This document shows, piece after piece, positions 37,601 to 40,600 of a DNA stretch of 64,000 bases (the first letter of the stretch is position 1; each line of letters opens with the position of its first letter). The stretch comes from Pegea sp. RAD2-039. Lineage: Eukaryota > Chordata > Thaliacea > Salpida > Salpidae. The notes under the pieces are model-generated. The model was not told the origin of the DNA and ran no database searches. It saw nothing but the letters and a program-made list of their open reading frames with translations. The position numbers and the translations under genes were made by a program. Where the stretch lies: positions 1 to 64,000 of the forward strand of contig JAQGEQ010000350.1 in assembly GCA_034620365.1 (NCBI GenBank), read 5' to 3'.

Positions 37601-40600
37601 AAAGAAGTTGAAGTCCTAAAGATCAAGAAGTGAAGATCAGGATGAAGATCAGGATGAAGTTTACCTTTGAGCGCAATATTGTAAAGTTCCTCGTTTTCTT
37701 TATCTGATCTCGGCTGATCTCTTTGAGTTGTTGTCACCACCTGGGAAGAAGATGCAGGATTAAGATCTTTTGATGCAAGATCTTTCAGGATCTTTAAGTT
37801 TTAGAATTGTTGGAAAGTTTCTAGTTTCGACTTTTTATTTGTATGTCAGATTGAACATTCAAGCTTATAAAAGAGTCGACTCAAATGATTCTTATTTCGT
37901 AATTTAAATGGATTTGCAACAGAGTGAGTAGTTAACAGGCTACATATTCGAAGAATTACCTCGTTGTTGCTGTGTTTCGCCAATTCACTTGTATACTTAA
38001 TGTGTTCCTCTCTGATAAAAACCAATTGTTCAGCAAGATTATATTGAGGGATGATTCCAGTAGCAGTAGAGTTGCTAGCAGAAGCACAAGACCACTTAGA
38101 CTTGTTGTCATCGAAGTCAGACATGTTTTGAATGTAGCTTGCTAATGGTATTTGCATATCACCAAACAAAGGAACTACTTGTAATTGCTGTAGACGAAGA
38201 TGAGAGGTCAAGTTGAAATCTGATGTTTGTGTCTTAACCTTGAAAAATTTGTCGATCTTATTCAAGTTCAATCTTTTTTTATCATTTAACTTGTAGATGT
38301 TGACATCTCTGTTGTCAAGGAGAAATAATCCGAACCCCATCACCTAACACAAGAAATATTTTACAAAAAAAATAATTATAAAAAGATTTAAGTAGAAACA
38401 ACAAACTAATCAACCTTTAATAGCATGTGTTTTTCTGATGGCAAAATATACATTTTGTTCTCATAATAATTCATACTGATGTTTACAATATCACAAATCA
38501 ATTCCTCGTAACCTTGTATTCCTGTAATTAACAAATTATTCAAGATAAGTTGAAACTAGTTTGGTTATGAAGGTAGCTAGCAGTAAACTCTGGGCTTTCT
38601 ACTCATGTGAAGATGAAATGAAATAGAACCTGATAAAACAAGTTTCAGTGATGATGTAATCTTATCATGATTGGCAAGAAACATGGAAAGATTTTGAGAT
38701 TCCTGCATCGATTGTGAATCTGACATCTTCTTAAGGAATTGAGCAGCTCTACAAACAATTTAATCTTCTTTTTAGTCGATTAGAAGTTTCAAATTACTGT
38801 TGATTAAAAAATTAACAACAAAATGAAGCAACAAACAAGCAACAAGTGAATATAAATGAACTCTAACACAAGCAAAAACAAGATAAATAAAGGATGTAGA
38901 TGTGAAGATCACAAAATCTAAATATGATGAACTCATGAGCAAATTAGTATATAAAAATTGAAACAAAAACTTATAAGTTTTGATCTACAAAGTTTTAAAT
39001 AGTTGCAAATTAGTTAAAACTTTGAGGTAGCACAATTCTTATAAAATATCTTCAAATTATCTCTGTTCTTATCATATAGAAACTGACAAATTATTTGATA
39101 AACTTCAAGAAAGTTGAAATATTATTAACTTTTTCCATTTACTTACATTTATCATTTTTTTTTATATATTTGTAAAAAAGTTAATGACTGAAATATTTAT
39201 TTAAATATCTAAATAAGTATTTTAATTATCAAAGTTGGTAAATTATTGACAATAGTAATGATGGAATCCAGCAATTTTTCCTTTTACCTCCTATAAGCGG
39301 AATAATCATTTTTAACACTACTTTTCATGTTCTTCAGAGCATCGAGTACAGCAAACATATTGATGAATCTTCCTAATGTCAGTAAATATGCTTCAGAAAC
39401 AAAATCTTTTCTCCTTTCTTGATGAGAAAGTCGTTTAACTTCTGCAGCAAAACGGTCAACAGCTTGTTTCTATTTGAAGACGAAATGAAATTGTTTAGAA
39501 GTTTGGTTTGTTTAGTTGAAGATGTTGGATTAGTTTCAACAAGTCTTTGTAGAGAGGCAAGCATGCAAAGATGCAAAAAACATAAACTAATCGAACCAAG
39601 ATGAAAATAAAAGTACAGACAACAAATCGAAACAAATAGAAGAGTGGTGAGATCTGACCTACGATAACAAGATAAATCATTACTACATGATGCTTTGATA
39701 TTTTTTAGTGCGTCTAACACCGCAAACATGTTCAGTATTTTGCCTAATTTCAACAGATAGCTGTGAGAAAGTATTTGACGATTTTTGCGGTTTTCGGAAG
39801 AGCAAACTTTCAAGACTTCACTATAAAAAAACTCCACGGCCTTTTTCTGCAGTTCGAAAGCGAGATTTAAATCGAACATCAACATTTATGGGGATACTTT
39901 GAGTATAGATGCGAAAGCAAGAGATTAAATTCAAATAGAAAAGTTTTTAGATTAGTATTTGATGAAGATGGAAACAACAAAAAGCTAAATAATTTATTTT
40001 GATTTACATTTCACCTCCTTATTAGACATCAACATTTATGAGATTATTAAACAATAAAGAAGCAATTACACTCGGTTAAGTTAATTGATGAAAAATTAAA
40101 AAAATGTTTGGAAATAACAAATCAGAGCAATACTGATTACACCCAACAATTTGTAGATATTAGAAAAATGTCTGTAATAAAATCAGTTGGAATTTCTTAC
40201 TTGGAAATGCATAAACTTCATCAGTTTTTGTACTTCAGGTTCAAGAACTTGAACAGTTTTTTCATAAATTTCTAATCTATTTGCCTGTTCATTTGATTTC
40301 ACTTGAGGAATAGCTCTTGAACAACTTCTCCAAGTATACAACATAACTGCATAAGTATTACCTTCTTCTAACATAGCGTTCTACAAGTCAAAAAAACACA
40401 AGTTGTAAAAGAAAATTCAATATGAGGCTATCATAAATAAATATATAGAGAGAAAAATGTAGCAAAAAGCAATTTTATAAAAAATAAATTATTAACTTAT
40501 TTATAAATACTTATAATCCAAGGTAAGTTTTAATGAGAACTCAATAACTATTTAGTTTTTCTTATAATTAATTATTCTAATTAATTATATTTATCAAATT

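Follow-up and report, generated by a model that had tools for sequence, protein, structure and literature searches.

The window analysed here, 64,000 nucleotides of the contig JAQGEQ010000350.1 of Pegea sp. RAD2-039, holds a complete CYFIP gene on its minus strand at 41129-31694. CYFIP is the protein through which Rac turns on actin branching. The gene was rebuilt as 26 exon pieces, 22 constitutive and four alternative (the start of exon 14 and the internal intron of exon 17 were placed by frame and by the human sequence, and the internal intron of exon 6 and the start of exon 13 against Clavelina CYFIP). The alternative pieces, their surroundings and the gene as a whole are as follows.

31694..41129, minus strand: whole CYFIP coding region, 26 exon pieces
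40201..40380, minus strand: exon 2, upstream partner common to 3a and 3b; includes the region, human 95-108, where the remaining A-site contacts lie (contacts named in PMC9481577)
39847..40200, minus strand: intron between exons 2 and 3a, 354 nt; holds the 12-nt complement of the 3b acceptor
39659..39846, minus strand: exon 3a, variant copy, 188 nt (62 codons + 2 nt), phase 0 to 2
39470..39658, minus strand: intron between 3a and 3b, 189 nt, open in the 3a frame
39288..39469, minus strand: exon 3b, conserved copy, 182 nt (60 codons + 2 nt), phase 0 to 2
38630..38748, minus strand: exon 4, downstream partner common to 3a and 3b; completes the R190 codon AG/A
36927..37074, minus strand: exon 10, upstream partner common to pair 11
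36744..36879, minus strand: exon 11a, variant copy, 45 codons + 1 nt, phase 0 to 1
36124..36277, minus strand: exon 11b, conserved copy, 51 codons + 1 nt, phase 0 to 1; human CYFIP1 559-609
34645..34801, minus strand: exon 12, downstream partner common to pair 11; positions of human F626 and M632 by alignment count

Full-length alignment to CYFIP proteins identifies the gene as a CYFIP/Sra1 orthologue. Its product is 83% identical over 100% of the length to the CYFIP of the aplousobranch ascidian Clavelina lepadiformis, 78% identical to that of the ascidian Styela clava and about 66-70% identical to full-length vertebrate rows, all three values having been computed on a model with one 51-nt intron retained and one late exon start. 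Genome searches covered the animal's own assembly (105.7 Mb in 387 contigs). With Clavelina CYFIP as query, 21 of 21 matches fell inside the window gene, 3a being among them at E 1.8e-13, and no second CYFIP locus was found in the assembly. When the 26 exon pieces were used in tblastn (E <= 0.1), cross-matches within the gene arose only for pairs 3 and 11, and a single further match, at E 0.061, lay outside it. The reading that we favour, at a probability of about 0.78, is that this gene, the sole CYFIP (Sra1) found in the assembly, carries two tandem-duplicated, mutually exclusive exon pairs. [Two of its introns are mostly repeat: about 40 copies of a 27-base minisatellite unit (91% matches) at 34827-35910 make up most of intron 11b-12, and about 33 copies of the 17-base unit GAAGATCAGGAAGTGAT at 32410-32977 most of intron 18-19. 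Motifs similar to this 17-base unit are also present in other introns of the gene.]

A preliminary description of this DNA had placed two adjacent exons at 39846-39659 and 39469-39288. The coordinates proved exact: both exons have GT/AG borders, are open, run from phase 0 to phase 2 and are 189 nt apart. Both also encode, as had been proposed, the equivalent of human residues from about 130 to 190; CYFIP1 131-189 is matched by 3b at E 4.7e-25 and by 3a at E 5.1e-12. The frame shift predicted for joint use of the two copies brings a stop at codon 222, and use of neither brings one at codon 135. As homologous neighbours of equal phase, with a frame break on using both or none, the two copies have the build of mutually exclusive exons, just as had been suggested. 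For the exon 11 pair, which the preliminary description did not mention and which is the better supported of the two, the corresponding stops are at codon 617 (both copies) and codon 584 (neither). Since the frame survives only if exactly one exon is taken from each pair, the gene can encode four full-length CYFIPs; the proteins from all four combinations are uninterrupted (aa 1250, ab 1256, ba 1248 and bb 1254 amino acids). The splice sites of 3a, with a donor score of 5.93 and an acceptor score of 3.11, are inside the range of the gene's other introns, and the 3b acceptor is the weakest of the gene's 25. The length of the 3a-3b intron (39470-39658) is divisible by three, and the 3a frame stays open through it and continues into 3b, though not in the frame of 3b; shuffled versions are equally open in 3.4% of cases.

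The contrast drawn earlier between a conserved 3b and a heavily changed 3a is borne out, 3a having two extra residues and being identical to 3b at 33 of 60 aligned residues. At the nucleotide level 77 of 180 positions differ (34 at the 60 third positions, 43 at the 120 first and second ones), which corresponds to a dS of about 2.4, a saturated value, and a dN of 0.47. One stretch of 11 residues is identical between the copies. In a null model with 77 differences randomly placed on 3b in 20000 runs, the mean number of identical residues was 16.5 and the highest 26 of 60; the observed value is 33 of 60. An open frame was kept by 3.5% of the placements. With silent sites saturated and the protein preserved well beyond what neutrality predicts, 3a is, to judge from sequence comparison, very probably a functional alternative exon that is constrained at the protein level. 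We infer that it is transcribed and that in this species its splicing excludes that of 3b.

The same protein identity at saturated silent sites speaks against a rather improbable alternative, that 3a is a decaying or never-used relic of exon duplication which is still open. The open frame, both intact splice sites, the retained phase and the retained named contact residues argue in the same direction. The relic would fit several other observations. No 3a transcript or homologue was found in the protein database: among 120 listed of 722 homologues none has a 3a-like segment (112 were cut by pattern and eight inspected by eye, one of the eight, P0115, breaking off after residue 180), and a separate search gave no 3a-like protein at E <= 0.001 among 91 candidates, a weak search in that canonical CYFIP is also missing from its list. 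3a changes 11 of the 33 columns that are invariant in 20 other rows (its own 3b and 19 proteins chosen from the 120 listed), and its branch is very long, at 2.49. In codon usage it is further from the typical than are the conserved exons that were scored, and so is 11a, both lying outside the reference set. A quite different origin of the transcript, that 3a serves as an alternative first coding exon of a message starting in intron 2, with the ATG at 39885, and gives an N-terminally truncated CYFIP, seems improbable in a higher degree. There is an in-frame ATG 39 nt upstream of 3a with no stop between, and human CYFIP1 isoforms are said to be without the N-terminal part (PMC2268926, which reports human CYFIP1 splice forms other than the two exon pairs described here). 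A first exon would have no need, however, of the 3a acceptor, which lies at the exact homologous border and in the homologous phase, and the truncation would take away the part of the A site that exon 2 encodes. [Identical 15-mers occur 150 bases apart in intron 2, at 39876-39890 and 40026-40040, and one of them supplies the in-frame ATG.]

That two haplotypes, or the exon of a paralogue, were misjoined in tandem during assembly is very hard to credit. Nothing was found in favour of such an artefact; the 77 differences in 180 nucleotides are far beyond allelic divergence, the assembly has yielded no second CYFIP locus, and the second pair in the same gene is deposited as two isoforms in Clavelina.

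Its relatives bear only weakly on the age of the exon 3 duplication. The 3a peptide matches only 3a and 3b in the 105.7-Mb assembly (E <= 10), so no third copy was found there, and 3b-type segments are present in related proteins. The closest of these to 3a is the 3b of the JGI tunicate (62% over 61 columns). A tree in which 3a joins its own 3b and nothing else is mildly disfavoured (p-AU 0.038); its grouping with the JGI sequence and its own 3b (p-AU 0.52) is not, and neither is that with all tunicate rows (p-AU 0.48). From the closeness to the JGI 3b and the p-AU of 0.038, which are weak evidence, the duplication may predate this species. The predicted structures add little: AlphaFold models of the segments have a pLDDT of 66.4 for 3a and 79.0 for 3b, fold comparison of these models found Sra1 with neither 3a nor the 3b control, and the exon 3 pieces, 60-62 residues long, gave no Pfam match.

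What is at stake in the exchange is the A site, where binding of Rac1 opens the WAVE complex (PMC9481577). The Rac1 contacts that this paper names on the part encoded by exon 3 are N176, C179, N183, S186, K189 and R190; it describes position C179 as limited to small side chains and K178 as lying on the hinge axis. With human CYFIP1 numbering taken from alignments to the PDB sequence, 3a has N176, K178, A179, N183, S186, R189 and R190. The statement that the exon carries part of the A site, including C179 and R190, therefore holds for position 179, as it does for N176, N183, S186 and 189, and has to be amended for R190, the codon of which is split AG/A with exon 4. Two bases of that codon are on exon 3, and it is identical with either copy. 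Position 179 is indeed Ala in 3a and Ser in 3b, and both fit the small side chain rule of PMC9481577. At all six contact positions named there the residue type is kept in both copies, so loss of the named Rac1 contacts in 3a was rejected on the residue mapping, and the idea of a switch in the contacts themselves is not supported as it was put. The changes are mainly at 142-164, and 10 of the 11 changed invariant residues are there: R142K, L143V, H145S, D151N, F152I, V153L, E155H, A156S, T160K and F164I. The remaining one, K182S, affects a basic residue of the A site. With helix limits deduced from the text of PMC9481577, most of the divergence falls within the last part of H1b2, the loop and the first part of H2a. 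As the supplementary figures of that paper show further contacts, K182S may yet be in touch with Rac1. As far as its sequence tells, 3a looks like an A site that has been retuned or given another partner, not one that has been switched off.

How the exclusion might be enforced is a separate matter. The 189-nt 3a-3b intron exceeds in length 17 of the 24 remaining gaps between adjacent exon pieces and is well above the gene minimum of 44 nt, which makes physical crowding unlikely. A perfect 12-nt complement of the 3b acceptor is present in intron 2 at 39930-39941; it was the best of 18 site-intron tests and was reached by 1 of 200 shuffles. A 9-nt partial copy of the complement just after the 3a donor was reached by 11 of 200. 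A global fold gives the 12-nt pairing a probability below 0.001 and so does not support competing RNA structure as the mechanism; the complement is at most a weak lead. Frame logic and removal of faulty messages would alone suffice to leave single-choice proteins only.

For pair 11 the evidence includes isoform pairs deposited from other animals. The copies 11a and 11b are identical at 18 of 45 aligned residues (null P 0.0005). [Numbering rules out this exon as the carrier of E434, as it covers human 559-609, and a literature search on phosphorylation of CYFIP1 S582/S583 found nothing on CYFIP.] In Clavelina the 11b-like P0003 and the 11a-like P0004 have identical first 568 and last 640 residues and differ in segment 11 only. 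Callorhinchus P0080 and P0090 differ in segment 11, and P0080 has in addition 23 residues directly preceding it. [In this Callorhinchus milii protein the extra residues precede human 559, which is the exon 10/11 junction, and vertebrate splicing may be especially variable there.] A search with the 11a region gave one protein, P0005, at 57%, on a metagenome contig of 4066 bases; as that length just fits an intron-free coding sequence for 1248 amino acids, we infer that its source was a spliced transcript.

Pattern matching extracted segment 11 from 105 homologues out of the 120 listed (722 in total), and seven of the 105 are of the alternative type, two from tunicates and five from vertebrates (Anas, Amblyraja, Callorhinchus, Crocodylus and Propithecus). 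The 15 that were not cut comprise 11 that are canonical by eye, three seemingly mispredicted and one without the first half. In a tree of 22 chosen rows, 19 of them different, the eight alternates are on one side of a branch supported 95/91, with long branches as a caveat. Because tunicate and vertebrate alternates share this side, pair 11 probably predates the tunicate-vertebrate split, on the evidence of these sequences. It thus looks ancient, and the exon 3 pair looks like an apparently new one.

The two switches would act on different sides of CYFIP. Choice within pair 3 (human 130-190) would swap the end of helix H1b2, the next loop, H2a and the A-site helix alpha-B, with 3b as the standard form and 3a as one that keeps the contacts named in PMC9481577 and alters the surrounding scaffold and the basic K182. 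From the hinge model of that paper, WAVE complexes of the 3a type would be expected still to bind Rac at the A site, and the effect of 3a would be on affinity, on the cost of the activating hinge movement or on the choice of GTPase or partner. Pair 11 (human 559-609) would be the older switch, apparently common to vertebrate CYFIP1. It starts at the junction of the CYFIP2 insert that has been modelled at the WAVE1 interface (PMC11632847), and so it may set the firmness with which WAVE is kept inactive. A fuller proposal is that the two switches yield four types of WAVE complex, through an ancient exon 11 on the WAVE-holding side, as in vertebrates, and a tunicate-lineage exon 3 at the Rac A site, with 3a keeping the contacts on a re-engineered hinge scaffold and so responding at another threshold or to another Rac-like GTPase; taken whole, this is a tentative suggestion that we would put well short of probable. 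A clear Rac1 (97% over residues 2-68) lies on contig C245 of the genome, and there are further Rac/Cdc42-like matches on C210, C21, C264, C84, C13 and C30. That several Rac-like GTPases use different CYFIP forms is speculation. [On C30 (L021, L023, L029, L031, L033 and L034) two Rac/Cdc42-like loci lie next to each other, separated by about 4 kb, and have near-equal Rac1 match values.]

The A site is treated as a single surface in the literature consulted, and a second natural version of it, with the named contacts retained and the parts behind them altered, would amount to an unplanned mutagenesis experiment on the hinge model. Pair 11 for its part suggests that vertebrates have a CYFIP1 isoform that has drawn little notice. 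Primates may be among them, on the strength of a single Propithecus entry that differs elsewhere too from the row with which it was compared. CYFIP1 has been called an autism- and schizophrenia-associated gene (PMC6381785).

The preliminary description knew of no account of the exon 3 switch, and none was found for either pair among open-licence papers (titles and abstract starts of the top-ranked matches). A description elsewhere is possible, and the vertebrate pair 11 alternates are already present as database entries. The closest general parallel is with the tandem mutually exclusive exons treated in PMC9741552, the main text of which has 0 occurrences of CYFIP. The likeness is in adjacent homologous exons of the same phase, one-of-two logic, constraint on both copies and, for pair 11, a probably ancient origin; the difference is that pair 3 sits in a Rac GTPase-binding site. 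The vertebrate CYFIP1-type alternates of human 559-609 (P0071 of Anas acuta, an isoform X2, P0074 of Amblyraja, P0090 of Callorhinchus, P0101 of Crocodylus and P0119 of Propithecus) resemble the window 11a in their position in the protein, in being shorter than the standard 51 residues, in grouping with it at 95/91 and, by eye, in having 'SY' where the standard form has 'SF'. Unlike it they have 49 residues rather than 45-46, are known from database entries alone and have no counterpart of the exon 3 alternate. Human CYFIP2 isoform 1 has an insert, 558-582, that is modelled at the WAVE1 interface. This is splice variation at the same exon 10/11 junction, where Callorhinchus P0080 has its 23 residues, but it is an insertion as against the swap in the window, and its effect is computational (PMC11632847). 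Nearest to the exon 3 pair is the Rac1 A site of Sra1/CYFIP1 (PMC9481577; PMC5614565). Exon 3 encodes its alpha-B part, and the named contacts are in both copies; no alternative version is mentioned in the available text of these papers, whereas in the window the scaffold behind the site comes in two forms.
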